DNA from: Halohasta litchfieldiae | Lineage (GTDB): Archaea; Halobacteriota; Halobacteria; Halobacteriales; Haloferacaceae | Assembly: GCF_002788215.1 (NCBI RefSeq) | Contig: NZ_CP024845.1 | Coordinates: forward strand, 1,178,001 to 1,242,000 | Reading direction: 5' to 3' | DNA: 64,000 bases | Translations under genes and position numbers: made by a program | The notes under the pieces: generated by a model | What the model saw: only the letters and a program-made list of their open reading frames with translations | What the model was told of the DNA's origin: nothing | The model's database searches: none | Part shown: one piece after another, positions 27,144-57,590 of the stretch | Layout: every line of letters begins with the position of its first letter | Position numbering within the stretch: the stretch's first letter is position 1

Positions 27144-27178
27144 ATAGATATTTGTACCGTGGCTGATTGTATAGCTGT

Positions 27179-28471
27179 ATGACCGACGAGTCGACGGGGT
27201 CGAACAGGTCGGATGCAGCTCGCAACACCGACGAGATGTTTGTCGCCGAGTCCGACTCACCGCGACTCATCAAACGACTCGATTTGCTCGAAGTTGGGGC
27301 GGTCCCCGAGGGTGACCGGATCGTCGGTCGCAACAACGAGATCGAAGCCTTGGTCTCGAACCTCCGGCCAATCGTTCGGGGCGAGCCACCGACACCGGTG
27401 TTGATCTCTGGCAAAACCGGCACTGGAAAATCGCTTGTCGCTCGGCACGTCGCCGAGACCGCAACCAACGTCGCCGAACGCGAAGGTCTCGATGTCGCCG
27501 ATATCTACGTCGACTGTTCGCAACACTCCACCGAAACGCGGGCCGTTTGTGCCACCGCACGGGCGATCAACAAAGTCGCGGGATCGCCGCGAGACATCCC
27601 TTTGACCGGGCTTGGGGCGTCTCAATACTATACCTACATCTGGGAGCTCTTAGAGGACTTCGACGCCGCGGTGGTCATGCTGGATGAAATCGACCGGATT
27701 CAGCCGGATAACGACGGCAATCAAGATAACATTCTGATGCAACTCTCGCGAGCCCGTGAGGCCCAAAAGACCGACACGAACATCGGGATTATCGCTATTT
27801 CGAACAAACTCGATTATCCCGAGGAAATGAACCAGCGAGTACGGTCGTCGTTCGGCGATGCTGAGTTACTCTTTCCGCCGTATGACGCCAACCAGCTCAA
27901 AGACATCATGCGAGCCCGCGAAGATGCGTTCTACGATGATGCCCTCGAATCGGGTGTGATTCCGAAAGCAGCGGCGCTGGCGGCCCGCGAACACGGCGAC
28001 GCCCGAAAGGCGATTCGGATTTTGAAAAACGCCGGCCAGATCGCCGAGGAAATGCAAGATACGGTCGTTCGCGAAGCCCACCTCGATGAGGCCAAACAGC
28101 GGGCCGAAGCCGACCGCGTGGCCGAACACGTTTCGACACAGACACCTCACGCCCGGCATATCCTGCTGGCGCTGGCGTTGCTGACAAAAAACGCCGAGGC
28201 CGACGACGGCGAGGACGGCTATCGGACGACCGCAGTGTACGATGCCTACAAAATCGTCTGTGAGCAAGAAGGGACTGATCCGCTGAAAATCGACCGCGTG
28301 CGACAGTTGTTGGACGAACAGGCGTTTTTGGATATCATCGAGTGCCGACGGACTGGCGGCGGCCACCAGAAAGGCACCTTTACCGCCCACCGTCTGCTGA
28401 AAGACCCTGACGTAGTGGTCGAAGGTGTGGGCCACGACCCGGCGTTAGTGGCATCGGATATCGGAATCTGA
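27179..28471 (+). CDS. Orc1/Cdc6 replication initiator
   Basis: 430 residues from the ATG at 27179; the frame could open at 27167 but the shorter form matches the leaderless pattern, with a TATA-like GATAGATATT about 35 bp upstream. AAA+ motifs: Walker A VLISGKTGTGKSLVARH near 76, Walker B AAVVMLDEIDRIQ near 164, sensor 1 IIAISNKLDYPEEM and arginine-containing sensor 2 EHGDARKAIRILKNAG. The C-terminal winged helix (about 340-420) includes TAVYDAYKIVCEQEG and LDEQAFLDIIECRRTGGGHQ. It binds the flanking ORB repeats and loads the helicase. Confidence 0.96.
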   Translation: MTDESTGSNRSDAARNTDEMFVAESDSPRLIKRLDLLEVGAVPEGDRIVGRNNEIEALVSNLRPIVRGEPPTPVLISGKTGTGKSLVARHVAETATNVAEREGLDVADIYVDCSQHSTETRAVCATARAINKVAGSPRDIPLTGLGASQYYTYIWELLEDFDAAVVMLDEIDRIQPDNDGNQDNILMQLSRAREAQKTDTNIGIIAISNKLDYPEEMNQRVRSSFGDAELLFPPYDANQLKDIMRAREDAFYDDALESGVIPKAAALAAREHGDARKAIRILKNAGQIAEEMQDTVVREAHLDEAKQRAEADRVAEHVSTQTPHARHILLALALLTKNAEADDGEDGYRTTAVYDAYKIVCEQEGTDPLKIDRVRQLLDEQAFLDIIECRRTGGGHQKGTFTAHRLLKDPDVVVEGVGHDPALVASDIGI

Positions 28472-29986: not shown

Positions 29987-30415
29987 ATGTCACAGACTGA
30001 CGATTCCTCCTTGCAGGAACATACGAACGCTCGTCCCCGTCGACCTCCTGGACTCACCTTCGGGCTCACAGCTCTGACGGCGATCCTGCTGTCGGCGGTC
30101 GCGGTCGACCCAGTTGTTGCTCAACAGCCGCTGCAGAGCTCTGTGTGCGATGCCGAGAATCTCCCGGGCATGATTGAGGGATTCTTCCAGATTACGACAG
30201 CTCTCGGTATTATGGGTCTTGTAGTGGTCTGGCAGGCCGATTCCCTCGTCGATATGTTCACGCTCGATCCCGAACAGAAGAGAGGGATCAAACAGCACAA
30301 ACGATCAGCGATGAAGTCGGCTGTCATCCTCGTGATCCTCGGTCCACTGTACACGGTTGCCGGATCGATCATGGGCCTTCCACTGGCAGAGTGCGTTAAT
30401 CTCTCGCCTTGGTGA
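29987..30415 (+). CDS. VirB2/TrbC-like pilin candidate of the conjugation system
   Basis: 142 residues. A cytoplasmic N-terminus (30 residues), a signal-like hydrophobic segment (FGLTALTAILLSAVAVDPVV) with AQQ cleavage-like site, a second helix (FFQITTALGIMGLVVVWQAD), a basic cytoplasmic loop (DPEQKRGIKQHKRSAMK) and a third helix (SAVILVILGPLYTVAGSIMG). Signal peptide plus two helices around a short basic loop is the VirB2/TrbC topology. It is first in the T4SS-like operon and overlaps the next gene by 4 bp. The assignment rests on topology and place. Confidence 0.6.
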   Translation: MSQTDDSSLQEHTNARPRRPPGLTFGLTALTAILLSAVAVDPVVAQQPLQSSVCDAENLPGMIEGFFQITTALGIMGLVVVWQADSLVDMFTLDPEQKRGIKQHKRSAMKSAVILVILGPLYTVAGSIMGLPLAECVNLSPW

Positions 30416-32166
30416 GCTGGGGGCTGCTCTCAACAGACCACATGCAGGGGCACCTCTCGGTACTACTGGGCGTTCTCTTGGTGGGTTGTGTAGCCACAGG
30501 TGTCGTCACAGCAAGTCCGCCACTTCCTGGAACAGCAGAAAACGGTCTCTCTGCGAATGAGACGGCCACACTCTGGTCAGGTGACTCTGATAACTATATC
30601 AGCCAAGAGGAGTACTACCAGCGCTACGGCCACGAACGGTCGACCGCAGCTCAGGTTGCGAATGGGACCGACATCACGTTCAAGCGACCACCTGCGACCG
30701 CTGAGACGTGGACACGCAACGACTTCGAGGACCTCGAAGCAGGTGGTTCGGATCTTTCCGTTCATCCACCCCACGCATCACTCGACAGTGGGACATACAT
30801 CAAGGATGCCCATGCGACCGTCTTCGCCGTCCAGCCGTCGACGCGAGGTCACCTCGATTCCGATGAAACCCCACTCTATATCGCCCCAGAGGGAACGATG
30901 CGTGGATTCATCGACTACCGGGTAAGAGTTCCAGAGGATGACTCGTCGGGGAGTACAACGGTCGACTGGTCGCTTACTGATCACGCGATCCAGGAAGTAC
31001 GATTGAAGAAAGACGGAGAGACAATTGCACGGACTGATGGGTCACACACGCCTGTCCTCGACTATCAATTCAAGGGGGGACGGAGTACACGTCTTACACT
31101 AGAAGCAGACATCCATACCCGGCTGAAGAAAACAACGCGAATTGATCGGGGGAACTACACCGACGTCTCTGTCGACTACCCGACTGAGAGACGAACGGTT
31201 TCTGATTCGATCGATGTCGAGATCTACGATCTCATTGCGACCACATCCTACGCTGAATATCCGAATGGTGATACTGGGGTTGTAATCTTCCAGTACCGAC
31301 CGTGGCAGGGGTATACGCTAACAGCAGATACCGACGCAAAAGTACGGGGTGTCTGGCGGTTCTACACCACTCGCGATTCTAACTGGGACAGGCTCGTCGA
31401 ATCAGATCACTATGGTAGCGATACAGTCGACTCCGAGGCGATTCCGGTCTACGTTCATGCGTATCCCTCTCGGATTGGTCCACGTGCTGAACCCGAACGA
31501 GACGGCCCGATAATCACCGACACATGGGGGACTGAACGACAGTCACCAGTCGACACAATCGGTGAGAACGTCAATATCGAGATCGTAGATCAATCCTACA
31601 CGCCGACCTACGGTGTCGCTGTTCGAGCCGAAACAGTAGATCGAGACGCACTTCGTGTCGATGGAATCGTTCGGGGAGTGAGCGCATCACTCATTGAGTA
31701 TGCGTCTGGCTCCGAGCGACAACTTCGACGGAGTAATCTCTCTATTGCAGTTGTCGACCAGAACTCCTCACACGCTACATTGCGTGTCGAGCTTCGTGAC
31801 AACCAGACTGGTGAGCCGATCGTCCTCGATACCGACGGTCGACTGGCTCCCCTTGGTGGGGATATTCGGAATGGCTATATCACCGTCGACGATCAGCGCC
31901 TCGTGACCAACGAGTCTGGAGTCGCACTGCTCACAGTCGACTCTCCTGGACTCTACACAGCAACCTACCATCCCGGGTCGTGGCTCAGCCACAACCCAGC
32001 GTACGTTCGTGACACAGCGACTACTCGCTGGCATCCACTCGGGACGCTCGATAGCTGGTTTGAATTGATTTTCAACGCAGGTTGGCAGCTCATCCCGTTC
32101 TTTGTGATGTTCTATGCGGGCCATCGATTGCTCCGGATGCTTGGCCCGGAGGACTTCTTCGAATAA
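30412..32166 (+). CDS. Large surface-exposed membrane protein of the conjugation operon
   Basis: About 584 residues from the GTG at 30412, which overlaps the preceding TGA (GTGA); an earlier TTG adds one residue. Signal peptide LSVLLGVLLVGCVATGVVTA, a long extracellular part with many beta strands and N-glycosylation sequons (NGTD, NYTD, NSSH, NESG), and a C-terminal anchor (LIPFFVMFYAGHRLLRMLG). The region near residue 470-540 (TLRVELRDNQTGEPIVLDTD, GVALLTVDSPGLYTATYHPG) looks Ig-like. Likely an adhesin or exposed channel part for mating-pair contact. No bacterial T4SS homologue recognised. Confidence 0.65.
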   Translation: MSWGLLSTDHMQGHLSVLLGVLLVGCVATGVVTASPPLPGTAENGLSANETATLWSGDSDNYISQEEYYQRYGHERSTAAQVANGTDITFKRPPATAETWTRNDFEDLEAGGSDLSVHPPHASLDSGTYIKDAHATVFAVQPSTRGHLDSDETPLYIAPEGTMRGFIDYRVRVPEDDSSGSTTVDWSLTDHAIQEVRLKKDGETIARTDGSHTPVLDYQFKGGRSTRLTLEADIHTRLKKTTRIDRGNYTDVSVDYPTERRTVSDSIDVEIYDLIATTSYAEYPNGDTGVVIFQYRPWQGYTLTADTDAKVRGVWRFYTTRDSNWDRLVESDHYGSDTVDSEAIPVYVHAYPSRIGPRAEPERDGPIITDTWGTERQSPVDTIGENVNIEIVDQSYTPTYGVAVRAETVDRDALRVDGIVRGVSASLIEYASGSERQLRRSNLSIAVVDQNSSHATLRVELRDNQTGEPIVLDTDGRLAPLGGDIRNGYITVDDQRLVTNESGVALLTVDSPGLYTATYHPGSWLSHNPAYVRDTATTRWHPLGTLDSWFELIFNAGWQLIPFFVMFYAGHRLLRMLGPEDFFE

Positions 32167-32171
32167 GAATC

Positions 32172-33026
32172 ATGACTACACCAAATTCACACATTAGCAG
32201 ACGCACCGTCTTTCGAACCGTTGCAGGTACGGTACTGGCAGGCCTCGCTGGTTGTCTTGGCGATAATGACTCTGGAACTCCCGATGACGGAACTGACCCA
32301 TTAGCGGGTCAGGACCAGATCGAGCGTGTCGCCGTCGAGGGGACGACCCTCGTTGTCGAACTCACCACAGGAGCCGAGGTCGACCAGATCAACCTAATCG
32401 AACCGAACGGCGAGTTCTTCGGCCAACGTAAGGTGGCCACCGGTGCCCAACAGGTCTCGTTCGACCTCAGAACCAGTTATGTGCCCGGCGAGTACCGTAT
32501 CGTTGCGCTGAATGGGGGAGAAACAGAGGCTGAGGTTTCGTACCCTATTCAGCCGGATCTTCGAATAGTGGAGATGGGAATTGGAAGGAACCAACCCGAA
32601 CAGATGTGGGATGGATCGGGCAGAGCAATCGCTAAAGAGGCTTTTGTATCTGTTGAGAACCGAGGTAGCGGACCTGATGCAATCACAAAACTACTCTTCA
32701 CAGGTGATGTTCCGTATCCTTCTGATGAAGAGGGGACGAATTATGCAGACCATGCTGGTGTAAGTGGCATATACGATCCTAATGCAGATGTAGAAACAGA
32801 GGAGGTCATAATAGGTCCTAAGGAGCAACTCACCCTCTACAGCTACCGCTCACCATTTACTTTCATTCGTGGAGAAGGTACATCTTGTACAGCCGAAGAG
32901 CAAACTGGTGAATTTGACCTCTCTTTAGAAACACGAGTGGGGAATGATATATCGAGCACTTACACTATTCGCTACTCTGATTCAGACGAGTACGATAATT
33001 GTAATATTACAATTAGTGAGGTGTAG
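32172..33026 (+). CDS. Tat-exported lipoprotein of the conjugation operon
   Basis: 284 residues. N-terminus SRRTVFRTVAGTVLAGLAGC is a Tat signal with a lipobox (LAGC), followed by an acidic linker (DNDSGTPDDGTD). The mature part is beta-rich with a possible C-terminal Cys pair (GTSCTAEEQ, DNCNITISEV). Base composition drops from about residue 130 onwards: codons are AT-richer than in neighbouring genes (for example GATGAAGAGGGGACGAATTAT), suggesting a patchwork origin. It overlaps the next gene's possible GTG start and probably sits on the outer face of the membrane near the channel. Confidence 0.75.
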   Translation: MTTPNSHISRRTVFRTVAGTVLAGLAGCLGDNDSGTPDDGTDPLAGQDQIERVAVEGTTLVVELTTGAEVDQINLIEPNGEFFGQRKVATGAQQVSFDLRTSYVPGEYRIVALNGGETEAEVSYPIQPDLRIVEMGIGRNQPEQMWDGSGRAIAKEAFVSVENRGSGPDAITKLLFTGDVPYPSDEEGTNYADHAGVSGIYDPNADVETEEVIIGPKEQLTLYSYRSPFTFIRGEGTSCTAEEQTGEFDLSLETRVGNDISSTYTIRYSDSDEYDNCNITISEV

Positions 33027-33028
33027 TG

Positions 33029-34117
33029 ATGGTTGATTTGATTGATGTCGTCTTAGAGGGATTCAAAGACGTTGTCGACTGGGTTATTGGTCTCTTCATG
33101 GAGGGATTGACTACCGGATATGAAACTCTCACTGAGGAAATGTTCGGCACACCGATCCCCCAAACGGATGGAGCATTTGTCTTTGGAACACCGATAAACG
33201 GTCCTTGGCCAGTAATAAGAGATTCTTTGGTAGGTGGTGAGATTATGGTCATCTCACTACTCCTTCTCGTAATCTGTGTTCAAGGTCGACATACGATTCG
33301 AATATTCAACATCGGGAGTGCATACGAAGATAGAAGAACAAAAAAGACCGCTTGGGTTGGTGCTTTCTTAATTATCACTTGGTATTGGATGGGTGTTCTA
33401 GGACTCTATCTAGTAGATGGCTTCACAATCGCCCTGATGCCCAGTCTAAATACGCTAGGCAGTGTGATGATCGACTTTCTTAGAGAGTCATTGACCAATC
33501 CTGGTCTCTCTTTTCTGTTTGCTTTTATTGGAGGTGTTTCTATGTGGGCACTCCAAGCGCTCTACTACATTCGAGAGATTCTCCTCTATGTTTACGTCTA
33601 TACGATGCCGATAGCATTTGCATTCGGCTACGGTAATATACCAATTCTGTCTGAAATCGCAACGGGATTTATCAAGCGTTTTGTCCCGCTCGCAGTTCTT
33701 CCCCTCCCAGCAGCAGTAGTGTTCAAAGGCTACGATCTGCTTTACTCCCAGAATGGCCTCACTCCGGATGGTTCATTTTTGAAGTACTTAGTTGCAGCAT
33801 CGCTACCCTTGATTGCTCTCTACCTCACCTGGAAGACGTTCAAATACGCGACACCGCTGACTGCCAAGGTCATCGGTGGGACGACCAAAAGCGCGGCTCT
33901 CATCGGTGGAGTCGCTGCTGGCGCGTATGTCGGCGGTGCTGGGGTTGCGACGACTGCTGCACAGTGGGGCCCGAGAGCTGCCGCTGGGCAGGCAGTCGCC
34001 CAGAAGGTCGCTGGGCGGAATGGCAGCTCAGACACGGATTCGACTGACGAGAACAGTGCTGAATCGAACAACGCACCATCCTACCGGCGTACCGAGTACG
34101 ACCGCGGAATCTACTGA
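33029..34117 (+). CDS. VirB6/TrbL-like polytopic channel protein
   Basis: 362 residues from the ATG at 33029 (GTG at 33026 also possible). At least six hydrophobic segments: VISLLLLVICVQG, KKTAWVGAFLIITWYWMGVL, LSFLFAFIGGVSMWALQALY, ILLYVYVYTMPIAFAFGYGN, RFVPLAVLPLPAAVVFKGYD and VAASLPLIALYLTW, then a Gly/Ala-rich segment (IGGTTKSAALIGGVAAGAYV) and a disordered Ser/Asp-rich tail. A five-to-seven-helix protein placed before VirB4 is typical of the VirB6/TrbL position. First two-thirds are AT-richer than the tail. Confidence 0.7.
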   Translation: MVDLIDVVLEGFKDVVDWVIGLFMEGLTTGYETLTEEMFGTPIPQTDGAFVFGTPINGPWPVIRDSLVGGEIMVISLLLLVICVQGRHTIRIFNIGSAYEDRRTKKTAWVGAFLIITWYWMGVLGLYLVDGFTIALMPSLNTLGSVMIDFLRESLTNPGLSFLFAFIGGVSMWALQALYYIREILLYVYVYTMPIAFAFGYGNIPILSEIATGFIKRFVPLAVLPLPAAVVFKGYDLLYSQNGLTPDGSFLKYLVAASLPLIALYLTWKTFKYATPLTAKVIGGTTKSAALIGGVAAGAYVGGAGVATTAAQWGPRAAAGQAVAQKVAGRNGSSDTDSTDENSAESNNAPSYRRTEYDRGIY

Positions 34118-34129
34118 AAATTCGAACTA

Positions 34130-35245
34130 ATGGATCAAGACGCAGCAGCACGACGGATCATGGATCAGTTCGGCGAAGAAAGCCGTATTCCTTACCTCAA
34201 CATCGAGGAGGGCGACGTTGGAGTACTCATCTCCTTTCCGATCATCGGACTTCTCATCGCTGGCCTCACCGGAGTCGACTCACTTGCCCTTCCATTCGTA
34301 GTGGGCGGTCTCGGATTTGGCTTCGCAGTCATCTACGTCTCTCCCGATCACGTGAACGCGTGGACGTGGACGAAAGATGTCTACCGGTACGTCAAACGGC
34401 CGCAGGTTACGTTCAACGCACCAGCCGAGGCCGACAGCGAAACGAACGAGACCGTCCGCAATGAGGGCGGCCTCGCTAACTACACACCGTTCAAGCCTGA
34501 TGAGCGAACGCAGGACCTCACGAACGTAGAGCGAGCATGGCCGGGTGCCGGAGCGATCCAGCGTACCGACGGCACCATGGAAGCGTTCATCGAGATCTCC
34601 CCGGGAAACATGGATTTCGCAATGTCGACTGACTGGGCACAGCTCCAGGAGGCAGGCGAAGAATTCGCCAACAAAGAACTCGATTCTAAGCTTAAGCTAC
34701 ACGCGACAACCCGTGCATTTCCGGTCGAACAAATCACCGAGACAATCGAAGAGCGACTCAGTGATGAGGACGTCACGCAGAATACGATCTTCCGTGAACT
34801 CCTCGAAGAATACCAAGAGACACGACCCAGAGAAATGCGCGAGCGGGGTACCCAACAGATGCGGTACTACATCGGCGTCGAGGTCACTCCGCTGGAAGTC
34901 TATGATCGCTTCCGGGACGAAGGTACGCCTGCTGAGAAGCTAACTCAGTTCCCCGTTATCGGGTTTCTGTTCAACCCATTTGTGACTCGGCGAGAAGATT
35001 TCACCGACGTTGAACGCCGCGTCAAGATGTTCGAGAAGCTCGATAGCCGAGTCAACGACATCCAGACGGAGTTCATTCAGCAAGCCTCTGGCTGGTCGGC
35101 GCGGCGTCTCAGCACCGTCGAGCTGTTCGTACTGAATATGGACTTCTGGAACGGTCGCGAGCACGATCAGGACGAGGCAGCACACGTTGTTCGCAAGCAA
35201 CCGATCATCGGCCACTCATACCGGGAGGATGAGACCGATGAGTAG
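34130..35245 (+). CDS. PrgI/VirB3-like protein with an N-terminal VirB4-type domain
   Basis: 371 residues. Two hydrophobic segments near residues 30-70 (VGVLISFPIIGLLIAGLTGV, LPFVVGGLGFGFAVIYVSPD) match the PrgI/VirB3 topology. The rest (WPGAGAIQRTDGTMEAFIEI, SPGNMDFAMSTDWAQLQEAG, MRYYIGVEVTPLEVYDRF) resembles the N-terminal, non-ATPase region of VirB4/TraC/TrbE ATPases. Thus VirB4 seems split over two genes, with this one anchoring it at the membrane. Overlaps the ATPase gene start by 8 bp (ATGAGTAG). Confidence 0.72.
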   Translation: MDQDAAARRIMDQFGEESRIPYLNIEEGDVGVLISFPIIGLLIAGLTGVDSLALPFVVGGLGFGFAVIYVSPDHVNAWTWTKDVYRYVKRPQVTFNAPAEADSETNETVRNEGGLANYTPFKPDERTQDLTNVERAWPGAGAIQRTDGTMEAFIEISPGNMDFAMSTDWAQLQEAGEEFANKELDSKLKLHATTRAFPVEQITETIEERLSDEDVTQNTIFRELLEEYQETRPREMRERGTQQMRYYIGVEVTPLEVYDRFRDEGTPAEKLTQFPVIGFLFNPFVTRREDFTDVERRVKMFEKLDSRVNDIQTEFIQQASGWSARRLSTVELFVLNMDFWNGREHDQDEAAHVVRKQPIIGHSYREDETDE

Positions 35246-37436
35246 TGTTTTGCAGTCGAGTGGAGTTCTCGCCCAGCTTAGTGAGTATCTCCTGAATCCA
35301 ACGTCGACTGAGGGTGCTGCCATCTACCTTGTGTTGATCGTCGGTATCGGCGTCGCCGGGAAAATTCTCTGGGAGAGGCGCAATACGGACGACGAACCGG
35401 AGGTCGACTTCACAGACCTCCTCGACGAGGAGACGCTTGAACAGGGTCAGGCCGAGGGCCAGCTGCTCGATGATATCTCTGAGTCCCACAAAACGGTGAC
35501 CGCACCCGCAGCCATCGAATGGGACACACGAGCCGCTCACGTCGGTGAGCAGTGGACGTCGACACTCTACATCGCTGACTACCCTGATTATCCGAGCGAC
35601 GGATATCTCAGTGATCTCTTCGAGCTAACTGACGTCGAATTCGATCTGACGACCCATATCACGCCGAAGAATCAACAACGAGCTCGGAACGAACTCCAAG
35701 ATTTGGCTGACGATCTTCAAGTCGACGCCGATCTTGAACAGAGTATCCGTAGTTCCTACCTTCAGGAACGCGCCAACGAAGCCGCACTGACCTACAAAGC
35801 CGTCGAGAATGGGGCGAACGTCTTTGGGCAGGCACTCTTTGTCACCGTTCGAGCAGACGACAAGGACGACCTGCAGGACGCAGTCCAGAAGGTCAAGAGC
35901 GCACTCCGTGATGAGCCTGCGAACCTTATGCCAAAGACTGCGATATGTCGACAGGACCTCGCCTTGCAGTCTGCGGCCCCAATCGGGGGCAACGTCTTCG
36001 GTCGTGAATCAATCGCGCTCGGTGGGGCAGTTGGCGCATTACTCGCCTCACCGCACAACGCAACTATCCTGGAAGAAGGGGGAGTCGAGTTCGGGATTCA
36101 CAAAGACAACCAGAGCCCTGTCGTGATCGATCCGTTTGACCGTGACAATGGGTATGCGATGTTCACCGTGGGCGATACCGGCTCTGGCAAGTCGTTTGGC
36201 TCGAAACAGAACTTCATCCGCTCTATCGAGCAGAGCAAGGACCGAATCGGGATCATCCTCGAACCGCTGAACAACTGGGCAGGCGTCTCCGAGGCCCTCG
36301 ATGCGAAGCGAATTACCGTCGGTGGGACACTCGGTCTCAATCCTCTGGAGATTCGCCGTACGCCCGACCACGTCCAACGAGCGATGGGCGAGGATGCGAG
36401 CCCGTTCAACGAGAAGCTTGACGACGCCATGAGCTTCCTGACGAACTTCTTTGCCCTTCGTGGTATCTCGTTGGGAGACCGCCGAACAACACTTGAGTTG
36501 GGCCTCAAGCGCGCCTACAGACGCAACGAGATCTCCGACGACATCTCAACCCACGGCAATCCCAGTCCGACGATCCGCACGATGATGGACCTCTTCGAGG
36601 AGATGGTCGACAATCCAGAGGAGTTTGTCGTCCGATCGGACGAAGAAGCAGGGAAGATCCGCGAAGATGCGACGTGGCTCCTCGATCAGCTTCGACCCTT
36701 CGAAGAGGATGGTCGACACGCGAACCTCGGGAAGAATTCGGAGTTCGACATCCGCGACGAGAAGGTAATCTACCTCGATCTCGCCCAGCAGGAAGGCAGC
36801 GTCGACAGTAGCACGGCGCTCACAATGCAGTTGCTAATCTCGCTTGTCTACGAGCGAGCAAAAGAGACAGACAAGGAGGTCGTCTTCGTCATCGACGAGG
36901 CTCGCTACATCATGCAGGACGCGGCGAGTCTCTCATTCTTAGAGACGGTGTTCCGGCATCACCGACACCACGACCTCTCGATTCGACTGGTGACTCAGAC
37001 TGTCGATGAGTTCTTCCAGCATACCGAATCCGAGGCGATCCTCGATCAGTGTGCGGTCAAACAGTTCCATCGCCTCGACGGAATGGACGACCAGTGGGCG
37101 AAGGAATTTGGGCTGAACTACGCCCAGATGCGCTACGTACAGGATGCGGTTCCCGGCAACGAGGAGGCTGGCTTTTCTGAGGCACTCGTCGGCGTCGACG
37201 GAGAGTGGCGCGGGATTCGGGTCGAAGCAATGGCCAAGGAGAAGCAGGTGATCGACTTCGATCCGAGCAAGGGACGGTCGACACTCCCCGGTGCTGGCGA
37301 GACAGCTATAGAGGGGGATACTGAGCGGTTCCGAGAGCAGCTAGAAAAGCAGTCGACCAATGGAGATGATCGACAATCAGACGCCGTCTCTCCGAAGCCC
37401 GACGGCGGTCTACTGGAGGGTGAGGACAATGCGTGA
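35238..37436 (+). CDS. VirB4/TraC-type secretion ATPase
   Basis: 732 residues from ATG at 35238, with GGAGG 10 bp upstream. One N-terminal membrane segment (AIYLVLIVGIGVAGKILWER), a VirB4-like middle (TSTLYIADYPDYPSDGYLSD), and the HerA/VirB4 ATPase: Walker A FTVGDTGSGKSFGSKQ near 310, Walker B KEVVFVIDEARYIMQ near 548, and the arginine-finger/Gln region LSIRLVTQTVDEFFQ. It powers assembly or substrate transfer in the conjugation apparatus. Overlaps VirD4-like gene start by 8 bp (ATGCGTGA). Confidence 0.92.
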   Translation: MSSVLQSSGVLAQLSEYLLNPTSTEGAAIYLVLIVGIGVAGKILWERRNTDDEPEVDFTDLLDEETLEQGQAEGQLLDDISESHKTVTAPAAIEWDTRAAHVGEQWTSTLYIADYPDYPSDGYLSDLFELTDVEFDLTTHITPKNQQRARNELQDLADDLQVDADLEQSIRSSYLQERANEAALTYKAVENGANVFGQALFVTVRADDKDDLQDAVQKVKSALRDEPANLMPKTAICRQDLALQSAAPIGGNVFGRESIALGGAVGALLASPHNATILEEGGVEFGIHKDNQSPVVIDPFDRDNGYAMFTVGDTGSGKSFGSKQNFIRSIEQSKDRIGIILEPLNNWAGVSEALDAKRITVGGTLGLNPLEIRRTPDHVQRAMGEDASPFNEKLDDAMSFLTNFFALRGISLGDRRTTLELGLKRAYRRNEISDDISTHGNPSPTIRTMMDLFEEMVDNPEEFVVRSDEEAGKIREDATWLLDQLRPFEEDGRHANLGKNSEFDIRDEKVIYLDLAQQEGSVDSSTALTMQLLISLVYERAKETDKEVVFVIDEARYIMQDAASLSFLETVFRHHRHHDLSIRLVTQTVDEFFQHTESEAILDQCAVKQFHRLDGMDDQWAKEFGLNYAQMRYVQDAVPGNEEAGFSEALVGVDGEWRGIRVEAMAKEKQVIDFDPSKGRSTLPGAGETAIEGDTERFREQLEKQSTNGDDRQSDAVSPKPDGGLLEGEDNA

Positions 37437-40400
37437 GTACCTCCGGGTTACACCCACATCTGAAGAAGTCACAGCCAGTGAGATTCCTACTGTTCTCACG
37501 AGCCTGCACAAACTGGCCAGTGAAGGGTCGGGTGGTCTACTGAACGCGTTGAATCCGCTGCACAGCAGCCACCCACCTCGGTTTGAATTTCTCGCACTCA
37601 GTGAGGGCAAAGACGAGCCAGTTGAGTTCTACTATGGTGTCGACGAACATTTTGACACACTGGAGACTCGTCTACGGTCTATCTACCCCACGACGTTCGA
37701 TATCGAACGCGTCGAGGTCGACCTCGAAACAAAGCTTGTCCCGGCTGTTGAGTTCTCTCGTGAAGAGTTTGCAGAGGCAGTGAACGGTGGTGATTTACTG
37801 TATGAGTATGCTGACGAGGAGACGAGAACGGTAGCCAGCGATAGTCCCGAACATAGTGATGCAGACAAGGCAGCTTCGAGTACAGAACCGCCTGTGGAAG
37901 ATGGTGGTATCGTAGCCGACGAAGACAGCGAGACGTGGATCGAGATCGGAGACAACGCTGTCGTGGTCGGCTCCTCGAATGCCCGCTCTCCTGATGACAG
38001 CCAACTCCCGAGTGACAAACCGACGTTGACGGATCGAGATACCATTCTCGCTCGTCCAGCCATAGATTCACTGCATCCCCGAGGAGTCCGCTGGTGTGGG
38101 ACCGCCATTCGGAAGAAAGACTGGATGACGACGTTGACGCCCTTTACAGAGTCTCTGAACGGGACGTCGACCAGATCGATTACTTCCCCACTGGTGACAC
38201 TCATCGACCAGTTGAGCGATATCGAACTCCCGATTGCATTTCAAGTCGTTTTCGAGCGCCGCGACAGCTGGAAGGCCGACGGAGACCTTCGGAAGGAGGA
38301 TCTTGCGGATGGTCGTGATACACTCTCTCAAGAAATACTTGGGCCACTTCTGGAGTTCGATGATCAGTCGACGAGTACAACCGAACGGAAGCTGAGCGAG
38401 ACAGTCCAAGAACGAATTGATCGGATCACGGCTAAAAATTCCAGTCGGACGTTCACAGCTAATTTGCGTGCTGTTGTAGTGCCACCTGAGAACGGTGAGC
38501 TACTCGACTCGCAGATTGCTTCCCTTCGACCTGTTTTTGATCCACTTGATGGCCCATTCTATGGAATAGAGGGCCAAGCAGTAGGAGATCGCGGATGGCG
38601 AGAAGCAACGAAGAAAAAGAAAGGCCGGACACTGCTCAAGCGTGTTCTCAATCGGGAGCTCACGACTGGCCGCGGAAAGACACGTCCCGATCTGGTACTG
38701 AGTGGCGACGAACTCGCCAACTTCATTCTCGTGCCTTCGGCTGACCAACTCAGCGTCGAGGGTACGAGAGGCACACGTGCAGAACAGCAGAGTCGAAATC
38801 CGCTGCCCCGTCCTCATCAGGATCTCATGCGTGAGTTCACTGATGGAATGGCCATCGGGTATGCACTCAGCGAGAATGGGGAGGCCGAAGACGTTCCGAC
38901 ACACATCCCGCCGGGCTTGCTACCAACGCACTACGGCCGATTCGGGACTACCGGTTCAGGAAAATCGAAGGCGCTGATCAACGACATCCTCTCACTGTAC
39001 GAAAACACAGAGGGGCCGGTCATCCTCATCGATCCGAAAGGCGACGGGATGACCCAGAACTATATGCGGGCTCATGCTCGCAAGTTTGGAACCACCGACC
39101 TCGAAGAGAACGTGATCCACTTCCCGGTTCCTGATATCCTTCCCGGCTTTTCGTTCTTCGATCTCGAACCGTCGATGGAACGCGGTCGACGGCGTGTGGA
39201 TGCTGTCCAGAGGAAGGCAGACCACAACGAAGAGATCCTGAAACTCGTGATGGGCGAGAATCGATACGAGCGGGCTACGGTTGCCCCCACGTTGATTAAG
39301 ACTCTTATCAAGACCCTCTTCGATGAGGAGTATGGTCGGGAAAATGGGCTCTACCGTGAGTCGACCGACTATTTTGCTCACCGCCAGCTCGAATATGCTG
39401 TCGACAAGCTCTGGGAGGCTGGCCCACCACAACCGAATCCCGATGAAGCTCCTCAATCAGACGACGAGGAAGTCATTCGAGTGATTCGCCGGCAACTCCA
39501 ACTCGACTCAAAGACGTTCGGGAACGTGATGGGCGGTGTGGGGAACCGTCTGGCATACATTTCGCAGGATACCCACCTGCGACGCATCTTCAACAACACC
39601 GAAAACCGGTTCGATTTCCGTGATCTCATCGACGAGAACACGGTCATCCTGTTCGACCTCGGCGATCTTCGCGAGGAGGCAGCCCGCATCATGACGGGTG
39701 TGATTCTGACCAATCTCGATGATGCGCTCAAAGAGCGAAAACGCGACCTCGCACAGTACCCAGAGGACTACGTTGTGAACCTGATCGTCGACGAGGCCGC
39801 ATCGGTCGTGGTCTCGGGCATCATGAACGATCTCCTTGAAAAGGGTCGAGGCTTCCGCCTCTCGGTGGGCTTGTCGATGCAGTTTCCCGAACAGATGGAG
39901 GTCGAAGGCGGTCGGAAAGTCTACCTCAACGCCTTGAACAACATCGGGAGCTCGCTCATTGGGAAGATCAATGTCGACCGAGAGTTGGCCCGAGCAATGG
40001 CCCACGAGGAAATGGACCCCGTCGACTTCGCAAACCGGATTCGATCACTGCCTCGGGGGGAATGGATTGCCAGCCTGCCGAGTCCAACATTTGGAGAGAC
40101 AGGACCGTATCCATTCAGTATCAAACCACTTCCAATTCCAGCAGGCCATCCCGAGAGCGACTACCCACTCACGCCTCGTGAAGAAGCTCAATTCGATGAA
40201 AAACTCTCGGCGATACATAGCCGAGCAACCAACACATTCGGAGTGCCGGAATCAGCAGCTCCTACCACACAAACACCAGCAGCGCTCCGTGAGGTTCTCA
40301 GCGTCACTGACGACAAACTGGATGTCGCCCTCGCAAAGGTAGTACGGAGTTTGCAGCTTCGAGATGGAGTCCGTGATGAAAATGGGGAGGTAGCAGTCGA

Positions 40401-41793
40401 GCAGGTCGATCAAGAACTCCGTCGACTGTTCGAAGACGTTGAGGTTGACCCGCCATCATACAATGAATTGGCAGACATCCGCCAACGCACCCGGTTCCTA
40501 GAGACGAGCGTCGATCTTGATGTCGACGAGGTCGTTGTTCGGCTCACTGCAGCGGGCGAAGACGTAGCTGCCCCCGACACAGGTGGGGTACAAGCTGCTG
40601 GTGGTAGTGGCCACGATGATGCACTCCTCCAGATCGAGGAGGAGCTCACTACGCTCGGATTTACCGTCTCGATTCTCTCACAGGATGGAAGTGAGAAGCC
40701 CGATGGACGGGCCACCCATCCCGAACTGGACGAAACGTTCGCTATTGAGGTCGAAACGACCACCCCAGAGAACCCAGCGAAGGTGCTCACTAACCTTCGG
40801 AAAGCTCAGCAAGCAGGAGAGATACCCCTCTTCGTCGTTCGCCCGGGAAATTCAGAGCTAGATTGGGCCAAGCGTGTCGAAGGAATCCTTTCGCCGCCTG
40901 TTCGAGAGCTTCAGAGCGGCGAGATACGATTCTACACCGACGACTCGCCAATCACATTCAATGGAGGTGCAACCGAAGAGGGCGGAGTCACTGCTATTCG
41001 CCCCGTTACAGGAAGTGACGACAACCGTCGAAGCATCTGGGTGCGAGAAGACGATTCGATTGTTCTCTACGATGGAACTCGAACAGAGTACGTACGATTG
41101 GGATCGCTTTCAGCAGTGACGAAAGACCGCGTTCCCGCAATATACAGCTATGATCACACCGCGAACGAGTATCTGGTTTACGAGCCCGGTGAAACTCATA
41201 CTTACGAGTCGAAAACAGCGTTTGAGAAAGAGTGGGTTCCGATCAAAATCCCGTTTGTCCCAGAAGATTGTCTCCAAGAGCCTGCCTTTGGGAGCGATTC
41301 TTATTGCATCGTCATCCTCCCCGTCGACGGTGAACCAATGGCCTACTCTGACGGAGTCACGAGCCCACTCCATACGCTCTTAGAGACTTCATTCACCACT
41401 GTTCAACCTGAGTCGACGGGTGATGGGACTCATTCCTCAGATGGGGAACAAGGTTCTGGGTCGACAACCTCTGAGGAAAATTCCCACGGTGAGCAGCCAA
41501 CAACTCCCTCTCAAGAATCAAGTTGGAAGGACGATCCAGATGCTGCAATCGGACAGTTTGCATCGCAGTGGATCGTCGAAGATGAGGACGGAGTGGCAAC
41601 TTCAGTCGAGGTCTATGAGGTGTATCAGTCGTGGGCTGAAAAGCAGGATATAGAGCCGGACTCAAAGAGCTGGTTCGGTCGGCGTCTCAACAATCAAATC
41701 TCGTTTGAACGAACGACTGAACGACAGGATGGCGTTCCTATACGATGCTACAAGGGCATCAGACTCAGACATGGCGAGGTTGGAGATGAATAA
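37429..41793 (+). CDS. Giant VirD4/TraG-like coupling ATPase with nuclease-like and D5-type domains
   Basis: 1454 residues. Residues 1-500 form a large haloarchaeal N-terminal region. The ATPase core has Walker A YGRFGTTGSGKSKALIND near 506, VILIDPKGDGM, Walker B VVNLIVDEAASVV near 783 and GLSMQFPEQME. Residues about 1060-1145 (EEELTTLGFTVSILSQDGSE, KPDGRATHPELDETFAIEVE, TTTPENPAKVLTNLRKAQQA) fit a PD-(D/E)XK nuclease-like fold with Asp in PDG and Glu in EVE, but the usual Lys is absent. Residues 1364-1450 (SVEVYEVYQSWAEKQDIEPD, SWFGRRLNNQISFERTTERQ, CYKGIRLR) match the winged helix found at the C-terminus of D5/P4-type viral primases. It likely recruits and pumps DNA. Confidence 0.88.
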   Translation: MREYLRVTPTSEEVTASEIPTVLTSLHKLASEGSGGLLNALNPLHSSHPPRFEFLALSEGKDEPVEFYYGVDEHFDTLETRLRSIYPTTFDIERVEVDLETKLVPAVEFSREEFAEAVNGGDLLYEYADEETRTVASDSPEHSDADKAASSTEPPVEDGGIVADEDSETWIEIGDNAVVVGSSNARSPDDSQLPSDKPTLTDRDTILARPAIDSLHPRGVRWCGTAIRKKDWMTTLTPFTESLNGTSTRSITSPLVTLIDQLSDIELPIAFQVVFERRDSWKADGDLRKEDLADGRDTLSQEILGPLLEFDDQSTSTTERKLSETVQERIDRITAKNSSRTFTANLRAVVVPPENGELLDSQIASLRPVFDPLDGPFYGIEGQAVGDRGWREATKKKKGRTLLKRVLNRELTTGRGKTRPDLVLSGDELANFILVPSADQLSVEGTRGTRAEQQSRNPLPRPHQDLMREFTDGMAIGYALSENGEAEDVPTHIPPGLLPTHYGRFGTTGSGKSKALINDILSLYENTEGPVILIDPKGDGMTQNYMRAHARKFGTTDLEENVIHFPVPDILPGFSFFDLEPSMERGRRRVDAVQRKADHNEEILKLVMGENRYERATVAPTLIKTLIKTLFDEEYGRENGLYRESTDYFAHRQLEYAVDKLWEAGPPQPNPDEAPQSDDEEVIRVIRRQLQLDSKTFGNVMGGVGNRLAYISQDTHLRRIFNNTENRFDFRDLIDENTVILFDLGDLREEAARIMTGVILTNLDDALKERKRDLAQYPEDYVVNLIVDEAASVVVSGIMNDLLEKGRGFRLSVGLSMQFPEQMEVEGGRKVYLNALNNIGSSLIGKINVDRELARAMAHEEMDPVDFANRIRSLPRGEWIASLPSPTFGETGPYPFSIKPLPIPAGHPESDYPLTPREEAQFDEKLSAIHSRATNTFGVPESAAPTTQTPAALREVLSVTDDKLDVALAKVVRSLQLRDGVRDENGEVAVEQVDQELRRLFEDVEVDPPSYNELADIRQRTRFLETSVDLDVDEVVVRLTAAGEDVAAPDTGGVQAAGGSGHDDALLQIEEELTTLGFTVSILSQDGSEKPDGRATHPELDETFAIEVETTTPENPAKVLTNLRKAQQAGEIPLFVVRPGNSELDWAKRVEGILSPPVRELQSGEIRFYTDDSPITFNGGATEEGGVTAIRPVTGSDDNRRSIWVREDDSIVLYDGTRTEYVRLGSLSAVTKDRVPAIYSYDHTANEYLVYEPGETHTYESKTAFEKEWVPIKIPFVPEDCLQEPAFGSDSYCIVILPVDGEPMAYSDGVTSPLHTLLETSFTTVQPESTGDGTHSSDGEQGSGSTTSEENSHGEQPTTPSQESSWKDDPDAAIGQFASQWIVEDEDGVATSVEVYEVYQSWAEKQDIEPDSKSWFGRRLNNQISFERTTERQDGVPIRCYKGIRLRHGEVGDE

Positions 41794-42141
41794 CAGATTT
41801 AGATGTTTCAGCCGCTCTGGGGCGGGTGAACAGCATTTCGTGTTACTCCGATACTGTTCGACTACTATTGCCCGACGAAAAACGCAAAAACGCAAGACGG
41901 AGTGCTGTTACAGCAAATTCAAGCTTGGCGTAACACAGCGGTGTCTTAACGATTATGCCGTACATGCTGTTCAGGCTAATCTCACGGGATTTCCTGCTCA
42001 AATTGGAAATCCGTTACGGCAAAAACCAACTAGTATAGGACGGGGGGTCCCCGTTGGGACCAAGGGATTGGATCGGAATTCGGCACGGCGTGAATTTTGT
42101 CGACGCTCGATGGCGATGAGAGCGATGGATGGAGAGAAAAA
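41794..42141. promoter_or_regulatory. 348-bp spacer with alternative hairpins before the primase-like gene
   Basis: AT-richer than its neighbours. CGGGG-GGT-CCCCG (42041-42053) and GGTCCC-CGTT-GGGACC (42046-42061) are perfect, mutually exclusive hairpins about 80 nt before the ATG at 42142, a layout suited to a transcriptional or single-strand-origin signal. A long open frame through the region is basic, cysteine-rich and unlike haloarchaeal proteins and is not counted as a gene. Confidence 0.45.
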
Positions 42142-43416
42142 ATGAGCAACAGAGTACTGGCAGATAAGACAACTATTCCGGAGACAATCTGCGAACGTGA
42201 ACAGTGGGTCTGCTGGAAGAAAACTCAACGAGATGGCAACACAACAAAAATACCGGTAACTCCTGGAGGTGGTGGGTTCGCATCGTCGACTGACCCCGAG
42301 ACATGGGCTGGTTTCGAAATCGCCCTCGAATACGCCCGAACAGGGAAGGCCGATGGCGTGGGATTCGTCTTTACTGACGACGATCCGATTGTCGGCGTCG
42401 ACCTCGATGACTGTCGCGATCCCGAGACTGGTGAGGTCGACTCTGAGGCCCAGGACATCATCGAACGGCTCGACTCCTATACAGAAATCTCGCCGTCTGG
42501 AACCGGCTATCATGTGCTCATCGAAGGCGAACTCCCCGAAGGCCGAAACCGACGGGGACACATTGAACTGTACGACAGGGCTCGGTTTTTCACCGTCACC
42601 GGAGAGCACATCCAGGAGACTCCGACCCACATAGCGCGTCGACAAGACGCACTCGTGGCTATCCATCGTGAATACGTCCAAAGGTCCAGCAGTGATGAGA
42701 AGTCCAACTCACCGAATCGTGGGGGATCTGAGGACCAGTCAGACACCATTGATAGTACTGACGCTACGGTCGACAACGCGAACGCTGATCTCGATGATGA
42801 GAAACTCTTGGAGAAAGCTCGGCGTGCTTCAAACGGACCGAAGTTCGAGCGACTCTGGGGAGGGAACACTGGTGGATATGAAAGCAACTCTGAGGCCGAT
42901 ATGGCCTTGTGTTGTTTACTGGCTTTCTGGAGTGGCGGTAACCAGAGACAAATGGATCGGTTGTTCCGTCAGTCGGGCTTGCTGCGTGAGAAATGGGATG
43001 AGGTCCACTTTGCCGATGGGTCGACCTACGGTGAGAAGACTATCGAGAGAGCGATTTCGAACACCTCGGAGTTCTACGATCCTGGTCGTGGGAACCAATC
43101 CAAGCAATCTCAAATCACGAGTGAACCATCGGGTGAGGCTACCACTGATGTTGGCGTTGTCGTAGAGGAATCAACACGTAGTCAGGCGTATCTCACCGAG
43201 AAAAATCGACTCTTGGCCGAGCGTGTCGACGAACTCGAAGCCACGCTTGAACAGAAAAACGAGCGTGTCGATGCACTCGAAACTGAAAATCAACGACTCA
43301 AAGATGAGCTGACCAGTCGTGATCAGGAGACACAACCAGTTCTCCAGGAAGACGTAGAGGAGTCTAGCACAGACTCTATGTGGAAACGGACTAAGCAGCG
43401 GTTCTCACGTAGATAA
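42142..43416 (+). CDS. Primase-polymerase-like protein (NrS-1-type N-terminal domain) with coiled coil
   Basis: 424 residues. Residues 10-170 (QWVCWKKTQRDGNTTKIPVT, KADGVGFVFTDDDPIVGVDL, DDCRDPETG, YTEISPSGTGYHVLIEGELP, IELYDRARFFTVTGEHI) match the prim-pol domain found in NrS-1 phage polymerase and in plasmid/virus replication proteins, with catalytic-like Asp residues in VGVDLDD and the SPSGxGxH motif. A middle helical domain follows (SEADMALCCLLAFWSGGNQR), then a coiled coil (about 350-405). No helicase domain. It follows the coupling ATPase; a role in priming the transferred strand or replicon is likely. Confidence 0.82.
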   Translation: MSNRVLADKTTIPETICEREQWVCWKKTQRDGNTTKIPVTPGGGGFASSTDPETWAGFEIALEYARTGKADGVGFVFTDDDPIVGVDLDDCRDPETGEVDSEAQDIIERLDSYTEISPSGTGYHVLIEGELPEGRNRRGHIELYDRARFFTVTGEHIQETPTHIARRQDALVAIHREYVQRSSSDEKSNSPNRGGSEDQSDTIDSTDATVDNANADLDDEKLLEKARRASNGPKFERLWGGNTGGYESNSEADMALCCLLAFWSGGNQRQMDRLFRQSGLLREKWDEVHFADGSTYGEKTIERAISNTSEFYDPGRGNQSKQSQITSEPSGEATTDVGVVVEESTRSQAYLTEKNRLLAERVDELEATLEQKNERVDALETENQRLKDELTSRDQETQPVLQEDVEESSTDSMWKRTKQRFSRR

Positions 43417-48272: not shown

Positions 48273-49174
48273 GGTATCTTTTCGTGTTCCACTTTCAGGA
48301 TTAGCGATATCCGCACAGATGCGCATACGGTACAATTAATTTTCATATGTGTTGACTGCGCGATCTGAGCGCAACCTGATCCTCTGAACTACGATTATTC
48401 CAACTGTGACAGGTATGGCTTGTCGACATTCTTGCGGTACTCACCCAGTTCAGTCTCAACAATGTGTGCTACTCTTTGACTATGAGTTCAGCAACCAATC
48501 CTCGTTCCACAGAACTGTCATCTCTATCGCGGTTCTGTTCATGTTAATCGGCGGGAAACAGGACAGCCCGACTTCGCCGCTGGGTTCTCATTCAGACCGA
48601 GGAATATGACTTTCTAACTCTGCTCTCTGCTGTACAAGCGCTCGCAGTCTTGCATATCTGTTGTATTGATGATCTAACTGTCGACTGTTGAGACGAGTTG
48701 TATGGCTGGCCTTCTGGTGATCGTGGTCTGGTCTGTATTTGTTGACGGCCCGTCCCGCTCGCTGTCTACCGCCTTCAGCGACGCTCGCGACAGACCATTC
48801 CGGGCTGCGGCGAGCAAGCTCGCCGTTCCGGGCTAAAGTGAATGTGGCTTCGACGCCAGCGGGTATCTCTCGGGGGTTGCGCTGTGCCGTGCTCACCCCG
48901 CGAGACATACTCCGCTGGACGCTTGCTTCAGGCAGACACCGGGTCACTCACTGCGTTCGTGCCCCGAGCCTCACCTCGCTGCGCTCGCTGAGACTGCGCG
49001 CGGTCCTGGATTAGTTTCCTGCTTCGGACACGCTCTCACTCGCGCCCAGCGGCGCTCGTGAAGGCGCGAGCGAGAGCGTGTGATGGTTGAGTTGGTTAAT
49101 CGAGAGAGCCACGGCTGGAGAGTCGTGGTGTCGGAAAAAGACGCCGAGTGAGCGCCTTCGGAGCATATACTCCA
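48273..49174. other. 900-bp gene-free, GC-rich, hairpin-rich region
   Basis: From about 48750 to 49100 the sequence is rich in short CG-containing palindromes (for example GCGAGCAAGCTCGC near 48808, GCTCGC repeats and GCGCGAGCGAGAGCG near 49070). CCACG/CGTGG arms flank GCTGGAGAGT near 49112-49131, just before the OB-fold gene. Reading frames here are arginine-rich shadows. The pattern is typical of untranslated upstream DNA of haloarchaeal OB-fold protein genes and may form an mRNA leader. Confidence 0.45.
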
Positions 49175-50071
49175 ATGAGAAATAGGAATCTAATCAGTAA
49201 TGAAGTTTCGGTCGATGAACAGGCGTTCGAAAATGCAGATGAAGTGACGGTCGACGAGGATGGCTTCGAGGTCGTCGATGAGACTCCTGAGTTCCGGCCG
49301 TCGGTGCAGATGGAAATCCAGGCGAAAGTCGATTCAAACCACCCAGATGCGCGTCTCGAAGCAGGCCCGGATCACATATACGGAAAGACCCTCGTTCAGG
49401 AAGAGCGTATCCAGGGGCGGGAAGCGGAGTTAGCATCGATTAGTGCGAAGGCGGTATTCGGAAGTCAGGAGGGACGAGAAGAGCGGACCCGAGAGATCGT
49501 GGTCAAAGAGACGACGGCGCGGCGTGTGGAGTTCCTGAAGCGGGCGGGCTGTGTGAATCCGATGGTTCATCCAGATCGGGCAGATCCTCGTGAGATGCTT
49601 CCTCCTGAGCAGTTGGGGGCGGTGAACAGAGAGGCGATGCGGTTGGCCGAGAAATTGAATGGCTGGTCGACGGCGGCGATTGGTCGACAGTTGGGTGAAG
49701 CCGTAGTCGGCGGCTTGGATCTGACGAGTGCGGTGGTTGGAACGTTCGAGAAATTACAGACGGCCCCCGGAGCGGTGGTTCCAATCGGGAAGTTGGAGGC
49801 GATCAATCGAGAAGAGGTGAGCATTGCGGGTCGAGTAGTCCAATTGTGGGATTCATCGAGTCCAGCGATTGCCCAGGTGGGACTCATAGAGGATGAGAGC
49901 GGGCGAACAAAATTCACGAGCTGGGTGAAGTCGGATGCGAAGTGGGTCCAGGAAGGCGAGCAGGTGTGCATACACGGAGCGGCTAAGAGCTGGTACCAAG
50001 GGCGCGTGTCGGTGGCTGTGACGGGGTGGTCGACCATTCACACTCCTGAGCGCGGTCGGTGGTGGGAGTAG
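49175..50071 (+). CDS. OB-fold single-stranded DNA-binding (RPA-like) protein
   Basis: 298 residues from the ATG at 49175; the frame is open to 49148. The acidic N-terminus with an imperfect VTVDEDGFEVVDETPEF repeat, the helical middle (AVNREAMRLAEKLNGWSTAA) and the C-terminal OB fold (SIAGRVVQLWDSSSPAIAQV, GLIEDESGRTKFTSWVKSDA, GAAKSWYQGRVSVAVTGWST) match the accessory RPA-like proteins of haloarchaeal plasmids. Expected to coat single-stranded DNA during replication or transfer. No zinc finger is visible, in contrast with chromosomal RPA3-type proteins. Confidence 0.85.
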   Translation: MRNRNLISNEVSVDEQAFENADEVTVDEDGFEVVDETPEFRPSVQMEIQAKVDSNHPDARLEAGPDHIYGKTLVQEERIQGREAELASISAKAVFGSQEGREERTREIVVKETTARRVEFLKRAGCVNPMVHPDRADPREMLPPEQLGAVNREAMRLAEKLNGWSTAAIGRQLGEAVVGGLDLTSAVVGTFEKLQTAPGAVVPIGKLEAINREEVSIAGRVVQLWDSSSPAIAQVGLIEDESGRTKFTSWVKSDAKWVQEGEQVCIHGAAKSWYQGRVSVAVTGWSTIHTPERGRWWE

Positions 50072-53679: not shown

Positions 53680-53709
53680 TTTTTTCACCCCCTGAGGTGT
53701 GCGGGGTGT
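53680..53709 (+). promoter_or_regulatory. Structured leader element, copy C
   Basis: T-tract ATTTTTTC, stem CACCCC (53686-53691)/GGGGTG (53703-53708), loop CTGAGGTGTGC. T-tract to the TFB ATG is 55 nt. Confidence 0.8.
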
Positions 53710-53734
53710 GCAGAAAGCACTTCGCGTGTTTAGG

Positions 53735-57558: not shown

Positions 57559-57590
57559 TCTGAAGAAGCAGAACTCGTCGTGTGAAAATC

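Follow-up and report, generated by a model that had tools for sequence, protein, structure and literature searches.

In the haloarchaeon Halohasta litchfieldiae, the coupling ATPase of a conjugation operon carries a nuclease-like domain and a terminal winged helix, and its gene is followed by a non-coding gap with iteron-like repeats and a conserved core and by a dedicated primase gene. On balance, we lean towards reading this locus as the initiation module of relaxase-free haloarchaeal conjugation, made up of pump, nuclease, site-reading domain, primase and cis site. A bolder version, to which we give slightly less than even credence, is that the pump itself is the conjugation initiator and replaces the relaxase and relaxosome in much of the archaea, with an exchangeable winged helix, cognate repeats 3' of its gene, a nuclease and a primase. 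The computational results support the identity of the domains, the conservation of their motifs, the absence of four relaxase families, the pairing of tail and primase types, the co-swapping of winged helix and gap, and the presence of repeats and core; DNA binding, cutting, single-strand transfer and priming during transfer are inferred.

A transfer operon in a low-G+C region

The window analysed here is a stretch of 64,000 nucleotides (positions 1178001-1242000) of the 3.33-Mb single-contig genome. Its G+C content drops from 0.60-0.63 to 0.48-0.57 from approximately 7 kb onwards and stays low through to the window end, which is consistent with an integrated element extending past this end. 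The region contains the following transfer genes:

30409-43416: transfer operon, comprising two conserved proteins, VirB6/TrbL, a conserved protein, VirB4, the coupling ATPase, the gap and the primase
30409..32166, + strand: large conserved operon protein (matches in 26 fetched loci, best 70% identity)
32082..33026, + strand: conserved operon protein (matches in 25 loci)
33026..34117, + strand: VirB6/TrbL-like channel protein (Pfam TrbL_3, 3e-139)
34130..35245, + strand: conserved membrane-type operon protein (matches in 33 loci, best ~86% identity)
35187..37436, + strand: VirB4-type ATPase (Pfam CagE_TrbE_VirB, 5e-6)
37429..41793, + strand: coupling ATPase (the pump), 1454 aa, ATG start
41794..42141, no strand: non-coding gap that separates the pump from the primase gene, a candidate transfer origin with iterons and core
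42097..43416, + strand: NrS-1-type PrimPol with HBD and coiled-coil tail (PHROG 1829 DNA primase, 1e-93; Pfam NrS1-1_pol-like_HBD, 3e-31)
49148..50071, + strand: RPA-like single-stranded-DNA-binding protein (NCBIfam replication factor A, 4.8e-18, under cut-off)

The product of 30409..32166 is encoded upstream of VirB6 and VirB4, and the real start of the second gene probably lies near 32170, the listed one overlapping the preceding gene. The VirB4-type ATPase additionally has NCBIfam VirB4-like matches to 5e-37, under the family cut-offs; as its gene ends at 37436, it overlaps the pump gene by 8 nt. The RPA-like gene was found in 21 fetched loci and is conserved close to such operons.

Upstream of the operon, PolB (24114-26276) and Orc1/Cdc6 (27167-28471) are encoded, which suggests an element with its own replication machinery. 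Downstream genes include those for TFIIB (53699-54664) and an ArdC-type antirestriction protein (57582-58520), both usual cargo of conjugative elements. TFIIB has been noted in thaumarchaeal ICEs as well (PMC6563490). The low-G+C region also encodes a TnpB/IS605-type protein (12514-13818) and an Mrr-type restriction endonuclease (18715-20079). Elsewhere in the same genome (L002, C1:1398735-1400003), a truncated pump relative with an 808-aa frame, whose alignment stops within the ATPase, adjoins a protein identical to that encoded at window positions 10699-11520 and looks like a broken second element.

Architecture of the coupling ATPase

The original prediction had described the product of 37429-41793 as a VirD4/TraG-like protein of 1454 residues, about twice the usual length, and this observation is confirmed. 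DUF87/HerA matches residues 488-762 above the Pfam cut-off (1.6e-6), the Walker A motif GTTGSGKS lies at residue 506, and TrwB_AAD_bind scores slightly below its cut-off (18.6 versus 20.5 bits). The parts of the protein are:

38809..40218, + strand: residues 461-930, HerA/VirD4-type ATPase core (DUF87, TrwB_AAD_bind; 74-85% identity to homologues)
40321..40563, + strand: residues 965-1045, first winged-helix-like domain, in which helices precede two strands (AF2 secondary structure)
40600..40938, + strand: residues 1058-1170, PD...ExE nuclease-like domain (D1092, E1107 and E1109 invariant)
41284..41790, + strand: residues 1286-1454, the part exchanged among alleles of relatives, including the D5/RFX winged helix (~1368-1447)

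A beta-rich region separates the nuclease-like domain from the terminal winged helix, and the first winged-helix-like domain is 53-69% conserved, with an AF2 pLDDT of approximately 57-82 across most of it. With its FtsK/HerA-class core bearing Walker motifs and its linkage to VirB4 and VirB6 transfer genes, the pump resembles T4CPs. Many T4CPs, although not all, have an N-terminal membrane anchor. A crude hydropathy test of the pump found no strongly hydrophobic, transmembrane-like segment, the top 19-residue value of 1.56 falling at residue 781 within the ATPase core, and we therefore call the protein a T4CP-like coupling ATPase and not a classical VirD4.

Within the nuclease-like region, the predicted 'PDG...AIEVET' stretch is present and conserved well beyond chance. 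No exchange of H1062, D1063, E1070, P1091-D1092, E1107-x-E1109 or K1118 was seen in 21 homologues of 40-61% identity. When the comparison is deepened to cover further coupling ATPases, a part of them from non-haloarchaeal members of the phylum, PD and ExE are still kept and K1118 is not. Only one other part of the pump is better conserved than this region (73-80% identity versus 44-56% for the N-terminus), and the T4CP cut-offs of Pfam (TrwB_AAD_bind and T4SS-DNA_transf) are passed by other archaeal ATPases that carry similar nuclease domains. A PD-(D/E)XK-type fold, as had been proposed, is likely on the basis of the invariant motif and the predicted order alpha-beta-beta-beta-alpha; the AF2 model itself, however, has low confidence (pLDDT ~49), and scans against Pfam, NCBIfam and PHROG returned nothing above noise. 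Foldseek neighbours of this model were mostly Hjc resolvases, DdmD, VRR_NUC and a PD-(D/E)XK homing enzyme, none individually significant (E > 0.1). The structure models are weak because the alignment is shallow and drawn from the loci of one search. Processing of DNA by the pump, the second function assigned to it by the original prediction, is thus plausible as judged from the conserved acidic residues and the related domains on other archaeal pumps, with a fold that was not confidently modelled.

The suggestion of a D5/P4-type winged helix at the end of the pump fared better in both profile search and structure prediction. Pfam Pox_D5 matches residues 1374-1430 (4e-4, above the cut-off for the cropped module) and was found in 20 of the 21 pump homologues, and the domain is modelled with a pLDDT above 80 and resembles RFX DNA-binding domains with TM scores of 0.79-0.86. 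It also matches the extreme C-terminus of the viral primase families PHROG 6088 and 1829 and the C-terminus of a P4-type helicase (L138). With the profile of the C-terminal module, a PDB sequence search retrieved RFX-type winged helices and, apart from these, a single weak match to a chain named as a transposase.

The C-terminal region behaves as a module, since it is also fused to a second ATPase lineage in which the module is 46-52% identical and the ATPase only ~24%. Conversely, the same N-terminal 944 residues are followed in other loci by a second tail type, consisting of a winged helix and another acidic, nuclease-like block with the invariants D, GE-x-E, SNN and DYxK. The motifs of the window tail and of this 'VGE(V/A)E..SNN..DYxK' tail align in register; their common descent is not claimed, as profile-profile scores were lower than for unrelated windows. 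A second chromosomal HerA-like ATPase of the same genome (L003, C1:2297209-2298621) ends in this other nuclease-like tail (LDLVG...VEVE), without the lysine. Pump relatives were found at 23 loci in one scan; 125 of the 194 genomes of the class carry some relative at 1e-10, and none was found among viral contigs. Homologues also occur on 175 plasmids, 174 of which are typed as 'non-mobilizable'. Many of these plasmids bear VirB4 and VirB6 genes, and the typing tool probably misses archaeal conjugation.

Absence of four relaxase families

No relaxase was found among the scanned ORFs of the window, as had been noted from the sequence. Neither this genome nor 19 others contain MOBP, MOBQ or MOBF, and MOBH is likewise missing from this genome and 21 others, with positive controls detected in each case; the MOBV profile gave no match, and no control was detected with it either. 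A relation to Replic_Relax was considered and dropped, with no match over the cut-off and likewise no detected control. Absence of a relaxase is by itself already described for archaeal conjugation and hence not new: three publications state that archaeal conjugative elements have no recognisable relaxase (PMC9905601, PMC6563490, PMC12857230). NurA was present in all 22 genomes tested, which leaves room for the published idea that HerA-NurA supplies single-stranded DNA.

A swapped cassette joins the winged helix to the gap

The pump gene and the probable PrimPol start (ATG 42142) are separated by a gap, which had been missed by the original prediction together with the dedicated primase. Corresponding gaps in other loci measure approximately 270-500 bp. 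In the window, the gap contains:

41906..41917, + strand: iteron-like TGTTACAGCAAA
41924..41935, - strand: iteron-like TGTTACGCCAAG, inverted
42012..42023, + strand: iteron-like CGTTACGGCAAA, abutting the core
42024..42057, no strand: conserved core AACCAACTAGTATAGGACGGGGGGTCCCCGTTGG with the inverted repeat CCAAC/GTTGG (sole match in window and genome)

Three pairs of relatives (L004 and L005, L017 and L010, L023 and L015) encode pumps that are 88-99% identical up to residue 1285 and only 30-31% identical thereafter. On the DNA level, low identity extends from ~550 bp before the pump stop to ~300 bp past it, with both flanks of high identity, whereas loci of one allele group keep more than 85% identity across the cassette. 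The swapped cassette of ~850 bp has sharp edges and takes in the last winged helix together with the non-coding gap of some 345 bp. The two travel together, as would be expected of a DNA-binding domain with its own site. Pumps with more similar winged helices also share more repeat words (Mantel P 0.0005; 0.001 with nuclease divergence controlled), and by eye helices with WFxRRL mostly accompany GTTAC-type repeats and those with WFxRKL the GTTCC/GTCC types. The proposal that DNA recognition has moved onto the pump is therefore well supported by these sequence comparisons. In one locus (L146), a stand-alone 109-aa terminal winged helix is followed by a repeat-plus-core site and a PrimPol gene, with no pump.

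The left part of the gaps contains allele-specific repeats, often in both orientations: GTTACGGCA-like repeats in the window, L019, L039 and L048, GTTCCACCCA in L007/L005, GTCCAGGCA in L050-L054, GTTCAGGGCA in L056 and L065, CCCTGACC in L030, and further types in other loci. Repeated 8-mers reach a maximum of five copies versus ~1.5 in shuffles. The repeats of the window gap itself are degenerate, being enriched only in a relaxed search (exact 8-mer test, P 0.59). Three near-consensus 12-mers were counted there versus 0.005 expected, with a partly circular consensus derived from the relatives and the window's last copy; the shorter GTTACRGCAAA has only two exact matches in the window, both inside the gap.

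To the right of the repeats, a core with the consensus AACCRACTAGTATAG...CCGTYGG was present with at most one mismatch in 67 of 77 gaps, versus one match outside gaps in 1.17 Mb of loci, and was never found in 524 kb of loci with the other tail type. Across 188 genomes the exact pattern was matched 20 times, in 16 cases directly after a listed pump gene; its reversed control had no match. The other four are L146, a remnant (L143) and the solitary repeat-plus-core sites L144 and L145, which lie ~10 kb apart on one large contig and have different repeat types; no pump or primase match was found within ~12 kb of these two sites. Both may be remnants, or else serve in mobilisation. The two arms of the inverted repeat CCRAC/GTYGG covary (score 0.20 versus 0.07 in shuffled alignments, reached in 0/500 shuffles), mainly through one pair that changes from A-T to G-C in 8 of 26 sequences. 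Since folding of the core as DNA shows no unusual stability (z -0.16), the inverted repeat can equally well be read as a protein-bound palindrome or as a hairpin. We infer that the gap is an oriT and not an origin of another kind.

Primase types are paired with tail types

The PrimPol downstream of the gap contains the motifs GVDLDD, SGTGYH and IELYDRARFFTVTG. After dereplication, a PrimPol was found within 1 kb of 32 of 35 window-type tails and of 1 of 13 others (Fisher P ~8e-8). An initial idea that a primase accompanies the window tail type only was wrong, as loci with the second tail type encode a PriS-like primase of their own; its gene overlaps or adjoins the pump gene in most of them and is ~3.2 kb away, end to end, in L025, where DNA_primase_S scores slightly under its cut-off (1.6e-5). 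Tail type and primase type are hence paired in the sample, with the exceptions of L073 (PrimPol), L072 (neither found) and a pNG600-like clade, in which window-type pumps occur without PrimPol and without core. A 684-aa protein encoded in the pNG600-like loci has motifs that resemble those of primases on inspection by eye (GDIDLADD, SVGGAY, PPLSIH), and no profile match.

Proposed mechanism and alternative explanations

We hypothesize that the coupling ATPase, of the VirD4/HerA class and presumably hexameric, would recognise its own element through the last winged helix by binding the iterated repeats in the gap just downstream of its gene. The PD...ExE domain could then cut a single strand in the core next to the repeats or close to it, the ATPase would pump the cut strand through the VirB6/VirB4 channel, and the adjoining PrimPol might prime replacement or recipient-strand synthesis. 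Several findings count against this explanation: the poor AF2 model of the nuclease, the loss of the classical catalytic lysine in the deepest set, the possibility that host HerA-NurA makes the single-stranded DNA (with NurA in every tested genome), the window's degenerate repeats, a hairpin of no unusual stability with covariation mainly in one base pair, and the pNG600-like window-type pumps that lack PrimPol and core.

The main rival, which we regard as unlikely, is that winged helix, gap and PrimPol form a P4- or pRN1-like vegetative replication origin sited by chance in a transfer operon, the tail recruiting the motor or primase for plasmid copying. It draws on P4 alpha, a protein with TOPRIM primase, helicase and winged helix that binds origin iterons, and on pRN1, whose PrimPol-helicase-winged-helix protein has an essential stem-loop origin just 3' of its own gene (PMC4234260); the last winged helix of the pump matches such primases. 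Against it stand the motor, which belongs to the conjugation ATPases, has a nuclease-like domain and is encoded in a VirB6-VirB4 operon, the separate Orc1/Cdc6 gene and PolB of the window, and the other tail type, which is paired with a primase but lacks both core and D5 winged helix. The next rival, rated a little lower, treats the gap as the promoter or operator of the primase gene, with the second winged helix as autoregulator and the core as a BRE/TATA-like element. The core contains TAGTATA and, in every locus where it was found, precedes the start of the primase alignment by 107-141 bp, and the neighbouring repeats could be operators; conservation over more than 30 bp and a covarying inverted repeat speak against a promoter, as do the solitary sites L144 and L145, possibly remnants, with no primase match within ~12 kb.

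Two further explanations concern the cutting step, and we consider each of them improbable and slightly less favoured than an operator. The tail nuclease may be NurA/HerA- or terminase-like and trim or cut double-stranded ends during pumping, transfer then being double-stranded or starting from breaks made by other proteins. The coupling-ATPase relatives L127 and L130 match a terminase large-subunit family, and HerA-NurA, with its ubiquitous NurA in the tested genomes, has been proposed as the source of single-stranded DNA for Ced/Ted (PMC9905601); a dedicated primase and an RPA-like protein nevertheless point to single-stranded intermediates, and a start at a defined site is suggested by the recognition cassette. 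Alternatively, the nuclease-like domain may be inactive and serve binding only, with an unrecognised relaxase elsewhere on the elements. The catalytic lysine is not universal, the relaxase search covered MOBP, MOBQ, MOBF and MOBH with positive controls and MOBV with none, and several operon genes have no assigned function. The acidic triad, in contrast, is invariant across deep divergence and in several lineages, which makes nuclease activity of the pump domain plausible, and the four controlled relaxase families gave no matches in complete genomes. Recognition and cutting by the pump itself remain our preferred reading.

Comparison with known systems

Like the VirD4, TrwB and TraG T4CPs, the pump is an FtsK/HerA-class P-loop ATPase encoded beside VirB4 and VirB6 genes; unlike them, it is twice the usual length, has no obvious membrane helix and no relaxase partner that we could find, and bears a nuclease-like domain and two winged helices. 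The archaeal conjugation and Ced/Ted systems (pNOB8, pT33-3, thaumarchaeal ICEs) share VirB4, VirD4, VirB6 and the lack of a recognisable relaxase, whereas the parts of the reports available to us name no pump nuclease or cis site, for both of which candidates are given here (PMC9905601, PMC6563490, PMC12857230).

The nearest precedents for a site reader with an adjacent site are, by analogy, P4 alpha with its iterons and pRN1. P4 alpha and pRN1 ORF904 combine primase, SF3 helicase and a C-terminal winged helix; putative cognate iterons are shared with P4 alpha, and a related primase type and a candidate origin just 3' of the gene with pRN1 ORF904 (PMC4234260). Here, in contrast, two genes are involved, no SF3 helicase domain was found in the pump or the downstream primase, and a conjugation ATPase with a nuclease-like domain takes the corresponding place. 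In comparison to the NrS-1-type PrimPols of PHROG 1829, 42097-43416 covers the PrimPol-HBD half and the second winged helix of the pump the last 70 residues, while the helicase part is missing and the winged helix resides on the neighbouring pump. HerA-NurA likewise couples a HerA-class motor with a nuclease and is a proposed Ced/Ted source of single-stranded DNA (PMC9905601), but NurA is a separate protein of RNase H-fold, whereas the PD...ExE-type nuclease-like domain is covalently fused.

Implications for haloarchaeal conjugation

How DNA is prepared for relaxase-free conjugation in archaea is described as an open question in current reviews (PMC12857230, PMC9905601). With exact coordinates, the locus provides concrete candidates for four components of the start of archaeal conjugation, namely the domains for recognition and for cutting, the primase and the cis site, and the cassette exchange amounts to a swap experiment already made by evolution. 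On two haloarchaeal plasmids, the annotation places xseA and xseB, the genes for the subunits of Exonuclease VII, a few kb ahead of the transfer operon (L076:9956-11194, L142:841-2078). The substrate of Exonuclease VII is single-stranded DNA. Finally, our results suggest that relaxase-based typing overlooks the transfer systems of many haloarchaeal plasmids that it classifies as 'non-mobilizable' (174 of 175 here).
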